Shown here: positions 26,356-52,798 of the stretch, in pieces
Numbering within the stretch: the first letter of the stretch is position 1
Layout of the letters: each line of letters begins with the position of its first letter
Assembly: GCA_002839185.1 (NCBI GenBank)
Contig: PGXO01000005.1
Span: forward strand, 62,001-126,000
Length of the DNA: 64,000 nucleotides
Direction: 5' to 3'
Source: Synergistetes bacterium HGW-Synergistetes-1
Lineage (GTDB): Bacteria > Synergistota > Synergistia > Synergistales > Synergistaceae
Translations under genes and position numbers: made by a program
The notes under the pieces: model-generated
The model's input: only the letters and a program-made list of their open reading frames with translations
Told to the model about the DNA's origin: nothing
Database searches by the model: none

Positions 26356-27540
26356 TTAATTTCTTTTATCAGATACTGAACCTTTCGAAATATCGGATAT
26401 CACAAACGCCGCCCATAATTCAAATGCGTCCTTAAAATTCCAGGGATCCTTTCCGGTAAGCGAACGAATTTTTTTCAGCCTGTACTGCAGGCTGTTCCTG
26501 TGCATAGAAAGTTTGTCCGCCACGTTGCCACTGGCAAAGGGAGATTCGCACCATGCAAGAAAGGTCTCTTTTATTTCCTCATAATCATTCCTGGAATCCA
26601 GCCCTTTGAGCGTCCTTGAAACATAATCCTCCCTCACTGCGGCAGGAAGTGAATCAAGCAAGGACTCTCCTGTGAACTCCTCAGATCTGATTATTCCATT
26701 AACACCAAGCTGCTTTGCAAGCCTTAGGGATTTCCTTGCAGAGAGAAGAGAGCGGGCCAGTCCCTGGATGTCAAATGCAAAAAAACCAATAGAGACATCA
26801 GCATATATCCCCTTGCATTTTATGCTTTCAAGAAAATCATTTAAAAGTGTTTCCGCTGCCTCGTAAATTTTTTCCGGAGCCCTCTCTGAACTGGGCGCCA
26901 GCAGTACAGTCACCCTGTAATTTTCCTGCGGGCAAATAACGTTCCTGGGATTTGAAAAGCTGGTTTTCGTTTCCCGAAGCATCCTCTGAAAGGCAGATTC
27001 GGCAGCTTCATTTGACCATTTTTTCATCTCTATCACTATTGCGGCTCTGCACCTTGACAGGTTAAAACCGAGTTCCTTTGCCTGCATCATGATAAACTCT
27101 TCGTTACCGTTTCTGGGGTCGTAAGAGGCGACGTTCTCTATAAGATCACGAAGCGCTCTCTCCCTGAGGAGGTTGGACTCGAGAAATGCCTGCTCACGCA
27201 GCATGATCTCTGCCTGTTTCTGGACCAGCAGACCATATCTGGCCACTTCTTCCGGGAGACCTGCTATCGAAACGGACCCGAGCACATTGTCAAAAAGCTG
27301 AATGGGAAGGGTATATCCCGGAAGTACGTTCAGGTAATTCTCCGCGTCAAGGGTAGATGTTGCCATTGGCCTGTTTTCCTGCATTACCCTTATCGAAGGC
27401 GGGTGAAATTCTCCAACTCTTTTTTCCTCGTTGCATCCGATAATAACTCCCTTTTCATCTGTTACAAGGACCCCATATCCGATAACTTCACTGGTGCTTT
27501 TGGCAATATTCTGGGCCATTTTTTTAAACAACCGTTCCAC
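26356..27540 (-). CDS. CdaR/PucR-type transcriptional regulator
   Basis: The 394-residue protein has an N-terminal Diacid_rec-like sensor (MAQNIAKSTSEVIGYGVLVTDEKGVIIG, then GYTLPIQLFDNVLGSVSIAG), a central GGDEF-like/PucR linker region and a C-terminal PucR helix-turn-helix (NVADKLSMHRNSLQYRLKKIRSLTGKDP). Start is ambiguous: GTG 27540, or the ATG at 27519 that matches the family N-terminus. It is divergent from the glycine reductase operon, with a 142-nt shared upstream region containing a palindrome. CdaR-type proteins usually activate neighbouring catabolic genes in response to small carboxylates, so control of grd genes by glycine or a related metabolite is a reasonable inference. Confidence 0.88.
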   Translation of the reverse strand: MERLFKKMAQNIAKSTSEVIGYGVLVTDEKGVIIGCNEEKRVGEFHPPSIRVMQENRPMATSTLDAENYLNVLPGYTLPIQLFDNVLGSVSIAGLPEEVARYGLLVQKQAEIMLREQAFLESNLLRERALRDLIENVASYDPRNGNEEFIMMQAKELGFNLSRCRAAIVIEMKKWSNEAAESAFQRMLRETKTSFSNPRNVICPQENYRVTVLLAPSSERAPEKIYEAAETLLNDFLESIKCKGIYADVSIGFFAFDIQGLARSLLSARKSLRLAKQLGVNGIIRSEEFTGESLLDSLPAAVREDYVSRTLKGLDSRNDYEEIKETFLAWCESPFASGNVADKLSMHRNSLQYRLKKIRSLTGKDPWNFKDAFELWAAFVISDISKGSVSDKRN

Positions 27541-27682: not shown

Positions 27683-28972
27683 ATGCGGCTGGAACTGCAC
27701 AAGATACACATCACCGGCCTTGCTTTCGCCGATAAGACATACACGTCCGGCGGAACTCTTTTTATCAACAAAGATAAGGCTGAGGCAGTCATAGCAGAAG
27801 ACAAACGTTTTGCTAAAGTTGAACTGGACCTGGCATGTCCGGGAGAAAGCACACGCATCATACCTGTCAAGGACGTTATCGAACCCCGAGTTAAGATCGG
27901 CAGGAACTCTTACTTTCCAGGGTTTTTTGCGCCTATGGAAAAAGCAGGATCAGGAGAGACCCTTGTCCTTGACGGGGCTGCGGTGGTCACCTGCGGTCCT
28001 ATAGTTGCATTCCAGGAAGGATTCATAGACATGAGCGGGCCCGGAGCGCCTTATACTCCGTTCTCGCAGACATTTAATGTAGTCCTCTACGTTGAACCTG
28101 CAGAAAATCTTGAGAAGCATCTCTATGAGGCCGCACTCCGCGAAGCCGGACTTAAGCTCGCAGTCTACCTTGCAAAGTGCAGTGCGGAGAACGAATGGAA
28201 AGCTGATGAAGTCCAGGTCTTCGAAAAGGGGAACTCTTTCGAGGAGACACAAAAATATCCCGATCTGCCAAAGATCGTATATGTCTGCATGAATATAACG
28301 CAGGGTCTGCTTCACGACACATACCTTTATGCGAACGACCTGAAGCCGGCTCTGCCGACACTCCTTCACCCCAACGAAGTACTTGACGGAGCCATGGTCT
28401 CAGGAAACTGCGTATCAGCATGCGACAAAAATACTACATGGCACCATCTCCACAATCCTATTGTCCAGGCTCTTTACGCGAGACACGGCAAAGAAATCAA
28501 CTTTATGGGAATGATCCCCACCCAGGAAAGCACTGTTATGGACGGCAAACTAAGGGCGGCAGCCATGAACCTTTCGATAGCACAGCAGCTTGGAGCCGAC
28601 GGAGCGATAATATCAGAGGAAGGGTACGGAAACCCTGACACAGACCTCTGCCTGAATGCCAGATTCTTTGAGAACGCTGGGATCAAAGCTGTCCTTGTCT
28701 CCGATGAATCAGCGGGAACTGACGGAGCAAGCCAGAGTCTTGCGGATGCAACACCGGAACTTGATGCTTTCATCTCCACAGGAAACGTTAATGAGATGAT
28801 AGAAGTGCCGGCTATGGACAAAGTTATCGGCTGTAAAGAAGCAATATCTCTTCTTTCAGGTGGTGCTGAAGAGAGCCTGAGAAGTGACGGTTCAATGTTC
28901 GTAGAGCTTCAGTCGGTTATTGCTTCAACTGCAGAGATCGGTTTCAACAAACTTGGCTGCGAGTGGATCTAA
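27683..28972 (+). CDS. grdE: Glycine reductase complex component B, alpha/beta proprotein
   Basis: The 429-residue GrdE proprotein starts MRLELHKIHITGLAFADKT. It contains the GNCVSACDKNTTWHHLHNP segment, in which Cys243 is the expected site of self-cleavage that forms the pyruvoyl group. C-terminal parts include GADGAIISEEGYGNPDTDLC and LGCEWI. The ATG follows AAAGGGGG. With selenoprotein GrdB it forms substrate-specific component B, which captures the amino group of glycine as a Schiff base and passes a carboxymethyl group to the GrdA selenol. Paralogues serve sarcosine (GrdG) or betaine (GrdI). Glycine is favoured, but the substrate is not proven by sequence. Confidence 0.93.
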   Translation: MRLELHKIHITGLAFADKTYTSGGTLFINKDKAEAVIAEDKRFAKVELDLACPGESTRIIPVKDVIEPRVKIGRNSYFPGFFAPMEKAGSGETLVLDGAAVVTCGPIVAFQEGFIDMSGPGAPYTPFSQTFNVVLYVEPAENLEKHLYEAALREAGLKLAVYLAKCSAENEWKADEVQVFEKGNSFEETQKYPDLPKIVYVCMNITQGLLHDTYLYANDLKPALPTLLHPNEVLDGAMVSGNCVSACDKNTTWHHLHNPIVQALYARHGKEINFMGMIPTQESTVMDGKLRAAAMNLSIAQQLGADGAIISEEGYGNPDTDLCLNARFFENAGIKAVLVSDESAGTDGASQSLADATPELDAFISTGNVNEMIEVPAMDKVIGCKEAISLLSGGAEESLRSDGSMFVELQSVIASTAEIGFNKLGCEWI

Positions 28973-28987
28973 AAGGAGGCGGCTGAA

Positions 28988-30298
28988 ATGACATACAGGA
29001 TAGTTCATTACATAAACCAATTTTACGCCGGAATAGGCGGAGAAGAGATGGCAGACCACAAACCGGAACTTAGGGAAGGTTATGTCGGTCCCGGAATGCA
29101 GATCGAGAAACTCTTCAACGGAGAAGGCAAAGTCGTAGGAACTGTAATATGCGGAGACGGATATTACGGCGAGCATACCGATCAGGCAAGGATCGAATGC
29201 CTTGAGTTGATAAAGGGGCTACAGCCGGACATCCTCTTTGCAGGTCCTGCCTTCAACGCAGGAAGGTACGGCTTCGCCTGCGGAGATATTGCCGCAACGG
29301 TTGGGGAAGAACTCAATATCCCTACGGTATCGGCAATGTATCCCGAAAACCCCGGAGTTGAACTTTACTCGAAGAAAACTTACATAGCAATAACAACTGA
29401 CAGCGCCAGAGGCATGGCAAAAGCAATTCCATCCATGGTCAGCATCGGGGAAAAACTGCTCAAGCGCGAGAAGATGGGACCAGCAAGGCTGGAAGGCTAC
29501 ATCCACCGCGGCATAAGAAAATCATTCTTCCATGAAAAGAGCGGCGCAGAGAGAGCTGTTGAAATGCTGCTCGCAAAACTCAAAGGAGAAGGATTCCGTA
29601 CAGAGTACGAGATGCCTGTCTTCAACAAGATCCCGCCTGCAGCTCCTGTAAGTGACCTCAGTAAAGCAACGATCGCGCTTGTATCTTCGGGCGGCATAGT
29701 CCCCAAGGGGAACCCGGACCATATAAGAGTTTCATCTGCAGAAAGTTTCGGAGCTTATGACATTTCTGAGCTCAAGAATATGACACCGGAAAATTACGAG
29801 TCTATCCACGGAGGATATGACAGAGAGTGGGCAAACGTTGACCCGGATGTCGTCCTTCCCCTCGATGTAATGCGCGAGCTGGAGGCTGAAGGAGTTATCG
29901 GAAAGATCCATCCGATTTTCTACACTACGACGGGAACGGGAACAGCCGTTGCAAACGCGGAAAGATTTGGCAAGGAAATTGGCGAAGAGCTTAAAAAAGC
30001 AGGGGTAGACGCGGCAATACTGACATCTACCTGAGGAACCTGCACACGATGCGGCGCATCGATGACCCGCGAGATCGAAAGAGTAGCAGGTATACCAGTT
30101 GTGCAGATAGCAACGATAGTCCCGATAATGCTCACTGTCGGCACAAACAGGATAGTTCCTGGAGTAGCGATACCTCATCCGACCGGCAACCCTGCACTGG
30201 GTCCGGAAGGCGATAAAGCAGTCAGGAGAGAGCTGCTGCTCCGCTCTTTCAAGGCATTGACGACACCTGTAACAGAGCAGACTATTTTTGAAAAATGA
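28988..30298 (+). CDS. grdB: Glycine reductase component B gamma subunit, selenoprotein with in-frame UGA
   Basis: The full reading frame is 436 residues when the UGA at 30032-30034 (codon 349) is read as selenocysteine. The local sequence is TSTUGTCTRCGASM, the classic UxxCxxC active site of GrdB. Downstream residues (REIERVAGIPVVQIATIVPI ... NRIVPGVAIPHPTGNP) are fully family-like, so the UGA is not a stop. Residues before it include VYPENPGVELY-type and SSGGIVPKGNPDH segments. A small hairpin (30047-30061) follows at 12 nt. The start at ATG 28988 follows AAAAGGAGG, 15 nt after grdE. An ordinary caller would split this gene into 348- and 78-residue pieces. Confidence 0.95.
30035..30061 (+). 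promoter_or_regulatory. Candidate bacterial SECIS of grdB
   Basis: Immediately after the UGA, CGATGC (30047-30052) pairs with GCATCG (30056-30061) around a GGC loop. It is at the distance expected for a SelB-binding hairpin, though the loop sequence differs from the E. coli element. Confidence 0.6.
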
Positions 30299-30371: not shown

Positions 30372-30764
30372 ATGGCGGGAAAGATACTTCAGATAGTGAC
30401 GAACAACCCTGATATCTACTGGAGCCCTGAGATGCCTTACGGTGTAGTCTTTACAGAGGGCTCTCCCCTGGATGTGCTGGATAAGACTGAGGAACTTCTT
30501 CAGCATGGATGGCGTCTTCTTTCTGCACCACTACCTCCCAATGTCCCGATAATGCGCGGCCCTTACAGGTCGCTCGTGATCGAGGAATCTGAGTCAAAGT
30601 ACGATAAGGACGGAATAATCGCGATCGAGAAAGCAAGGGACAGATATTTGATAGAAAGACAGAAGAACTGCGCTGAACCTCAGGAAGATTTTGCTCTTAT
30701 TGACAGGCAGATGCTTCAAAGAGCTTTAAGGGATATTTCCATCCTGAACAGTATTTCTTCATAG
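30372..30764 (+). CDS. grdX: GrdX family protein
   Basis: The 130-residue protein begins MAGKILQIVTNNPDIYW and contains VVFTEGSPLDVLDKTEELLQHGWRLLSAPLPPNVPI and GPYRSLVIEE. These are recognisable GrdX features, a small protein found in glycine/betaine reductase loci, with no known biochemical role. The ATG follows GAGGAGAG with 7-nt spacing. It stands between component B genes and trxA-grdA, downstream of a strong hairpin terminator. Confidence 0.85.
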   Translation: MAGKILQIVTNNPDIYWSPEMPYGVVFTEGSPLDVLDKTEELLQHGWRLLSAPLPPNVPIMRGPYRSLVIEESESKYDKDGIIAIEKARDRYLIERQKNCAEPQEDFALIDRQMLQRALRDISILNSISS

Positions 30765-30858: not shown

Positions 30859-31182
30859 ATGATCGAATTGACAAAGGAAAATTGTGACGCTGAGGTACGC
30901 GAAGAGAAAGTGCTCCCGGTAGTTGTGGATTTCTGGGGACCTCAGTGCGTCCCGTGCATGGGACTTATGCCCCATTACATGGAAATGGCAAAAGAATTTG
31001 AGGGCAAGGCCAAGTTCACAAAGGTAGACTGCTCTGTAAACAAGAGAGTTGCAATGGGGTTCCGGGTAATGGGTCTTCCCACATTCCTTTTCTGGAAAGA
31101 CGGGGTCGAAGTAAGGCGCCTGACCAAAGAAGAGTGTACACCCGAAACGATCAGGGCAGAGATAGAAAAACTCATCGCATAG
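30859..31182 (+). CDS. trxA: Thioredoxin of the glycine reductase system
   Basis: The 107-residue thioredoxin has the active site WGPQCVPC (Cys30 and Cys33) in place of the usual WCGPC, and the cis-Pro loop MGLPTFLFWKDG. A CVPC-type active site is known for thioredoxins linked to glycine reductase in amino-acid-fermenting anaerobes. Its position directly before grdA supports that job: reduction of the oxidised selenoprotein A after acetyl phosphate release. No thioredoxin reductase gene lies in this cluster. The ATG has AGGAGG upstream. Confidence 0.9.
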   Translation: MIELTKENCDAEVREEKVLPVVVDFWGPQCVPCMGLMPHYMEMAKEFEGKAKFTKVDCSVNKRVAMGFRVMGLPTFLFWKDGVEVRRLTKEECTPETIRAEIEKLIA

Positions 31183-31239: not shown

Positions 31240-31632
31240 ATGGGCAAACTGGCAGGTAAGAAACTTCTCCTCCTGGGAGAAAGGGACGGCGTCCCTGGAC
31301 CGGCCATGGAGGCATGTCTGAAAGAAAGCGGAGCTGAGATAGTATTTTCTGCTACCGAATGCTTCGTCTGAACCGCAGCAGGGGCAATGGACCTGCAGAA
31401 CCAGCAGCGCATCGTTGATGCGGCTGAAAAGTATGGAGCCGAGAACTGTGTAGTGATACTGGGTTCTTCGGATGCGGAAGGCGCAGAGATCTACGCCGAG
31501 ACCGTAACGAACGGCGATCCTACTTTTGCAGGACCACTTGCAGGAGTCCCGTTGGGACTCGCGGTATACCACGTGTTTGATGAAGAGATCCGTTCTGAAT
31601 GCAATGAAATTAAAAGGACCGCGGAGCCCTGA
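31240..31632 (+). CDS. grdA: Glycine reductase selenoprotein A, with in-frame UGA
   Basis: The frame from ATG 31240 (after AAGGAGG) to TGA 31630 is 130 residues if the UGA at 31369-31371 is selenocysteine. The site is codon 44 in ECFVUT, exactly the conserved GrdA position. Flanking sequences [20 protein letters not shown] and [22 protein letters not shown] are strongly family-specific. GrdA carries the Se-carboxymethyl intermediate from component B to component C. Without recoding only the last 82 codons would be called as a gene. The C-terminal coding end overlaps the terminator stem. Confidence 0.96.
31372..31396 (+). promoter_or_regulatory. Candidate bacterial SECIS of grdA
   Basis: After the UGA, GCAGG (31378-31382) pairs with CCTGC (31392-31396) around a nine-base loop GGCAATGGA. 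Confidence 0.5.
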
Positions 31633-51608: not shown

Positions 51609-52627
51609 TTATAGTTTCAATGCTGCAAGAGTCTCCGTATATTCGTCATCCATTTTGAACGTTTCGGAGACTACGGGCAGAGTGAGTCTTTTCTTGTGGA
51701 TCGACAGCCCCTTACATATAGCTCTGTTTTCCTCACATGCCTTCACAACACCCTGAGAAGCTATCTGAACACCGTAACTGACCGTGGCGTTTGAAAGAGC
51801 TATGGCCGATGTTCTTGCATATGCACCTGGCATATTTGCTACACAATAATGTACTACTCCTTCTTCTATAAAAACCGGATCGTCGTGGGTCGTTGGATGA
51901 GAAGTTTCACCTATTCCTCCCTGGTCGATGGCAACATCAACAAAGACAGACCCCGGCCTCATCGATTTGAGATGTTCTCTTGTGACAAGCTTAGGAGCTT
52001 TTGCACCTCCCGGAAGAAGGACTGCTCCGATCACCATGTCAGATTCTTTTATCGTGTTGGCTATAGTCATCGAATCACTGTAGACCGAGACACAGTTCGA
52101 AGGCATGACATCTGAGAGGTAGGAAAGCTTTCTGTGGTTAATATCTGCTATCGTAACTTTAGCTCCAAGCCCCGATGCGACCTTTGCCGCATTGACCCCG
52201 ACTGTACCTCCGCCATGCCAGCCACCTCACTCATAGGCTGAAGAAGGGGGAGTCCCCATTCCTCAGATACAAGCTCATATGCGACACATGTAGCTCCGGA
52301 TCTCAGACATGCATTGGTAAGATCCTCATTTGCCGCAAAGTGGAAATAGGTGAAAATAATCTGGGAATCTCTCATCAGGTTATATTCAGGCTTTAATGGT
52401 TCCTTGACTTTAACTATCATATCTGATGTTTCCCAGACTTTTTCAGCTGCATCCATAATTTTGGCCCCTGCAGCAACGTATTCATGGTCATTAAAACCAG
52501 CTTGCAGCCCTGCGCCTGTTTCAACAAAAACCTCATGGCCTGCCTTCACATAGGTGGAGGTAGAAGCAGGAGTAAGTCCCACCCTGTATTCGCGGTTCTT
52601 GATCTCCTTTGGACATCCGATCCTCAT
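51609..52627 (-). pseudogene. ald: Alanine dehydrogenase with internal deletion and frameshift
   Basis: The N-terminal part (ATG 52627, MRIGCPKEIKNREYRVGLTPA, to LQPMSEVAGMA) is normal alanine dehydrogenase. At about 52215 the frame shifts. In the next frame the protein resumes at GGTVGVNAAKVASGLGAKVTIADIN and continues to AIDQGGIGETSHPTTHDDP and VVHYCVANMPGAYARTSAIALSN. Between these points about 37 residues found in other Ald proteins, ending just before the Rossmann GxGxxG, are missing, which means roughly 110 bases are deleted and the frame is lost. The truncated frame 1 ends at 52148. The product cannot be active. An assembly error is a possible alternative. Confidence 0.88.
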
Positions 52628-52798
52628 ATCAAATATCATCTCCCATTAGAATAAGATAATGAAAACCGTTACGAGCAAATCATACCATAATATTCAGAAT
52701 ATTACATTATGTACCAATTTTTTGATACTTATACATTTCAGTTAAAAAGATTTTCCAGTAAAAGTCATTGAAGATGCCAAAAGACAATCACAGAAAAT

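Follow-up and report, generated by a model that had tools for sequence, protein, structure and literature searches.

Among the described counterparts of the locus analyzed here is grdAB of Clostridium litorale, which encodes GrdB of glycine reductase (Kreimer and Andreesen 1995, cited in PMC9312934); in that system, GrdB contains selenocysteine (Sec) in a UxxCxxC motif encoded by a UGA with a downstream hairpin, and its neighbors include the alpha subunit, GrdX, thioredoxin and GrdA, features that are all found or predicted in the present locus. In the same phylum as our genome, all eight grdB genes of Cloacibacillus porcorum MFA1 are predicted to be Sec-containing and to possess a SECIS element, and Sec machinery was found in that organism (PMC10838667). 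The C. porcorum work concerns fluoroacetate (farB/farE), whereas the alpha subunit encoded here scores only 169 bits against the fluoroacetate FarE model (NF053623), far under the cut-off of 675. Further reference points are the sarcosine-type GrdF/GrdG pair of Peptoclostridium acidaminophilum (NZ_CP007453.1), which shares with our locus a GrdX neighbor and an alpha subunit with a pyruvoyl motif (57% identity for the beta and 51% for the alpha subunit), and betaine GrdH, which has the family and the Sec site in common with our protein at an identity of only 46%.

The window, that is, the entire analyzed stretch of 64,000 nucleotides, comes from a Synergistetes genome of 2.17 Mb in 15 contigs that is 99.9% complete. 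It contains a single 436-codon frame on the forward strand, from the ATG at 28988 to the terminal TGA at 30296-30298, with one internal TGA, at codon 349 (Table 1). The original prediction that two halves lie in one frame across this TGA agrees with the sequence base for base, and the surrounding residues are TSTUGTCTRCG, as had been proposed, with the predicted Sec as the first residue of the UxxCxxC motif. Plain ORF calling yields instead 28988-30034 (348 aa) and a 78-aa ORF that starts at the in-frame ATG 30062. The expectation that ordinary annotation splits such a gene thus holds for naive ORF callers but not across the board: the P. acidaminophilum record holds grdF as one intact CDS. 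The open stretch of 87 codons 3' of the UGA has a probability of about 0.03 by chance, which is weak evidence taken alone.

Table 1. Features of the component B locus (positions in the window)
Feature	Position	Strand	Evidence
PucR/CdaR-type transcription regulator, divergent	26356-27540	-	PF05651, PF13556; same place in 25/32 clade loci compared
Alpha subunit of component B (GrdE/GrdG type), pyruvoyl-forming motif GNCVSACDKNTT	27683-28972	+	PF09338 609 bits; motif alignment
Predicted selenoprotein B (beta subunit) of glycine/sarcosine/betaine-type reductase, 436 aa, Sec349	28988-30298	+	TIGR01918 599 bits, Pfam GRDB 536 bits; aligned with 43 family members
Predicted Sec-encoding UGA, codon 349, start of UxxCxxC	30032-30034	+	TGA in 107/107 related loci
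Putative bSECIS apical hairpin, 6-bp stem CGAUGC/GCAUCG, loop GGC	30047-30061	+	Fully paired in 80/84, compensatory changes
GrdX family protein	30372-30764	+	NF038093 65.8 bits, cut-off 40
Thioredoxin (TrxA)	30859-31182	+	PF00085 72 bits; NF047697 115 bits, under its cut-off 140
Predicted selenoprotein A (GrdA), 130 aa, Sec44	31240-31632	+	NF040748 211 bits, cut-off 130; comparison with relatives

The comparison with GrdB that had been suggested for the joined protein gave a match to the family profile TIGR01918 over residues 4-435, spanning the UGA and far above the cut-off of 65 (NCBIfam profile search). The Pfam GRDB model (PF07355) covers residues 3-348; the last of its 347 positions corresponds to the residue that precedes Sec. 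The structure predicted from 43 sequences has a mean pLDDT of 90.5, is confident both before and after residue 349, and positions this residue between a strand (342-347) and a helix (350-367); the placement of the domains relative to each other is less sure (pTM 0.58). No sequence-related solved structure was found for the joined protein, and a Foldseek search with the predicted structure returned weak general alpha/beta matches alone (TM about 0.2).

The genes of the locus are arranged in the order alpha subunit, beta subunit, GrdX, thioredoxin and GrdA, with the regulator divergent; by analogy, TrxA is the likely electron donor. The grdA gene, 1.3 kb downstream, is a second Sec gene that the original prediction left unmentioned, with a UGA at 31369-31371 (CFVU motif) that is conserved in relatives. 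Its product is shorter than those of relatives by 36 residues at the C terminus: compared to a related locus (L028, 6622-6748), 127 bp are missing at the junction 31608/31609. At this same junction, the end of contig C4 and the start of contig C3 overlap exactly by 76 bp, suggesting that two grdA copies share a repeat. The grdA gene is apparently truncated by a 127-bp deletion at this assembly junction, and both a real deletion and a misassembly are possible. Contig C3 opens with the grdA fragment, and directly after it comes a remnant of grdC that is interrupted by a TAA (L135; G000 C3:298-441). The genome contains a single copy of full grdC (C5:168328-169752), as expected if several B components share A and C. 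Elsewhere in the window, an alanine dehydrogenase-like gene (51609-52639, reverse strand) consists of two ORFs in different frames, with part of its middle apparently missing.

The genome encodes three component B genes. One of these, P0002 on the same contig, is a canonical glycine GrdB (661.1 bits, above the glycine cut-off of 602.2) that is accompanied by grdX, grdE, grdC and grdD; another, on contig C4, is betaine-like (best match 685 bits, under the cut-off of 775) and is located beside a BCCT transporter. The gene 28988-30298 scores 571.8 bits against the glycine GrdB equivalog model TIGR01917 (cut-off 602.2), 633.2 bits, its best among these models, against sarcosine GrdF (NF040794, cut-off 800), and 509.5 bits against betaine GrdH (NF040795, cut-off 775). 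The label grdB given in the original prediction can therefore be retained in the sense of a selenoprotein B of the GrdB family but not as a glycine-specific name, because the score is under the glycine cut-off that P0002 passes. The GrdF score does not discriminate, given that the same model assigns 698 bits to the glycine paralogue P0002.

In a quick tree of 88 rows, the gene belongs to a fully supported clade of 42 rows, all from Synergistota bar one that was binned as Ca. Adiutrix. The loci of this clade keep the order regulator, alpha, beta and, usually, GrdX; a search of the neighborhoods for a substrate-specific gene revealed no consistent marker except the PucR-type regulator and GrdX. 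In four relatives (L036, L041, L042 and L052), a sodium-dependent transporter is encoded a few genes downstream of component B, and our genome has a transporter of the same kind next to its canonical glycine reductase operon.

The alpha subunit provides an additional clue to the substrate. The cysteines of GNCVSACDKNTT are common to the glycine type and GrdG and are absent from the two betaine-type alpha subunits; such cysteines have been described as serving autocatalytic pyruvoyl formation, and betaine GrdI is without them (PMC10838667). Because the alpha subunit retains this motif, the substrate of the component B encoded at 27683-30298 is likely to be an amine, with sarcosine or glycine being the most likely and betaine unlikely.

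Between the two favored substrates, the evidence is divided. One tentative possibility is that of a second B component for glycine and not for sarcosine or another amine: the protein is 57% identical to the canonical GrdB of the same genome, the pyruvoyl motif is that of the glycine type, and joining of the clade to the Synergistota glycine GrdB is not rejected in AU tests (p-AU 0.53), but the score difference from the paralogue, the separate clade, the distinct regulator neighborhood and an operon without grdC and grdD all set it apart from glycine reductase GrdB. Orthology with the clostridial sarcosine reductase GrdF/GrdG can be entertained with the same reserve. Sarcosine GrdF is the top-scoring NCBIfam model, the identity to the P. 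acidaminophilum protein is as high as that to the genome's own GrdB, the joint clade is likewise not rejected (p-AU 0.47), and a sarcosine B component has been reported in Cloacibacillus (PMC10838667); however, the GrdF model gives the glycine GrdB the higher score, its cut-off is missed, and in the free tree GrdF groups with clostridial rows rather than with our gene. In a further, rather unlikely reading, the clade, with its conserved PucR-type regulator and amine-type alpha subunit, could represent a component B for an amine besides glycine, sarcosine and betaine, which would be a Stickland electron acceptor without prior description.

Regardless of the substrate, codon 349 is TGA in all 107 loci that align across it, and a Cys codon was never seen. 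These loci were identified by protein similarity with Cys substituted for Sec and include duplicates between collections, so that the number of distinct sequences is 84 (identity 42-100%); most are in related genomes and hence the 107 are not independent, although they range from Synergistota to Bacillota, Desulfovibrio, Cloacimonadota, Spirochaetota and Chloroflexota. A search of the phylum yielded a match in 134 of 188 genomes, almost all of them listed as having a single internal TGA. The part 3' of the UGA aligns with relatives across its whole length and, within the genus, evolves with dN of 0.005-0.03 and dS of 0.24-1.5, the same pattern as in the 5' part, so that the conservation of the downstream frame on which the original prediction had staked its case is indeed observed; on these comparisons, the 87 codons after the UGA are under purifying selection.

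These observations bear directly on the possibility that the UGA is a true stop, produced by a nonsense mutation or a sequencing error in a pseudogene. The TGA does interrupt the frame, and two other genes in the window, grdA at its 3' end and the alanine dehydrogenase gene, look damaged; nevertheless, this possibility is highly improbable and is refuted by the occurrence of the TGA at codon 349 in every aligned locus, including the other genomes of the genus, and by the conserved downstream frame with dN far below dS, to which the presence of the Sec machinery and of a conserved hairpin can be added.

The search for selA, selB, selC and selD that had been proposed along with the Sec assignment recovered all four genes, including selB and selC, the absence of which would have spoken against it. 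The selA (560 bits) and selB (370 bits) genes adjoin each other on contig C1, the tRNA-Sec gene (selC) scores 76 bits compared to the gathering score of 47 and has the anticodon tca (ARAGORN), and selD scores 332 bits. An in-frame TGA is also present close to the start of the selD gene itself (L021; G000 C4:202930-203853), suggesting that SelD of this genome is probably a selenoprotein as well. A genome-wide reassignment of UGA to a standard amino acid (Trp or Gly, for example) could account for in-frame UGAs in at least four genes of this genome but is even less credible than a true stop and was rejected, given that all in-frame UGAs found are at known Sec positions, that UGA terminates both the 28988-30298 gene itself and grdA, and that translation table 11 gives open frames for most other genes in the window.

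A hairpin was predicted to follow the UGA at a distance of 12 nt, and the stem begins exactly there, with arms 30047-30052 and 30056-30061 and the loop 18 nt after the UGA; a perfect hairpin of 6 bp and 3 nt occurs at this site alone within the gene. In the bSECIS model quoted in PMC13188914, the loop consists of 3-9 nt and is located 16-37 nt from the UGA, the stem is 4-16 bp long, and a G is found in the first two loop positions; the present hairpin, with its 6 bp, GGC loop and loop start, conforms to this model. When 60 nt from the UGA alone were folded with RNAfold, a different optimum was preferred (z -1.3), so the support for the hairpin is comparative and does not come from the folding energy of this sequence. 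Because single-sequence folding was uninformative, we used a null model in which synonymous codons were drawn according to each gene's own usage, over 84 sequences: all six pairs are formed in 80 of the 84 distinct sequences compared to 2.75 expected under such reshuffling.

The stem also shows co-variation. Pair 17-27 (numbered from the U of the UGA), which joins position 3 of an Arg codon to position 1 of the Ser, Thr or Ala codon that follows it, occurs as U-A, A-U, G-U and C-G variants and underwent nine changes by parsimony count, such that Arg CGA or CGG is paired with Ser UCG, CGU with Thr ACG, and CGC with Ala GCG. The outer pair changed from C-G to A-U via AGA and UCU in two loci that are placed apart from each other in the tree. 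Together, the conservation in excess of the expectation and the co-variation make the identification of the hairpin 30047-30061 as a bacterial SECIS well supported at the sequence level. In the 84 relatives, the Ser/Thr/Ala residue of the active-site stretch that is five positions C-terminal to Cys352 tracks the hairpin, as if the pairing and the residue changed together.

Considering the frame, its conservation, the Sec machinery, the selection on the hairpin and the gene neighborhood, all of which were computed, we can say with high confidence that the best explanation of the 28988-30298 gene is a substrate-binding selenoprotein B of a Stickland-type reductase in which UGA 349 is decoded as Sec via the hairpin. 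The original prediction of a single selenoprotein is borne out: UGA 349 is almost certainly read as selenocysteine in a GrdB-family subunit. Given that Sec-containing GrdB in Synergistota has already been published (PMC10838667), this reading is correct and ordinary.

Sec incorporation, the chemistry and the electron donor can be predicted by extrapolation from the family. SelB with Sec-tRNA(Sec) would decode UGA 349, directed by the hairpin, and the ribosome would carry on to the UGA at 30296, to which no such hairpin is assigned and where the protein would end. The alpha proprotein encoded just upstream contains the pyruvoyl-forming cysteine, and the enzyme is expected to hold the amine in a Schiff base linkage. 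Attack on the substrate by the selenol of Sec349 would then yield a carboxymethyl-selenoether that is passed to selenoprotein A; component C, encoded once and elsewhere in the genome, would make acetyl phosphate, with electrons supplied by thioredoxin.

The hairpin is a clear example of selection on RNA inside a coding region, where an Arg codon and the first base of a Ser/Thr codon change together. For annotation, it is important to join the two halves correctly: with a naive ORF caller, the protein is cut off just short of the catalytic residue, and the Pfam GRDB model stops at the same place. Furthermore, the 'grdB' matches in Synergistota should not all be taken as glycine reductase: the genome has three component B genes of differing type but a single full gene for component C, so which substrates these amino-acid fermenters can use hinges on distinguishing the paralogues.
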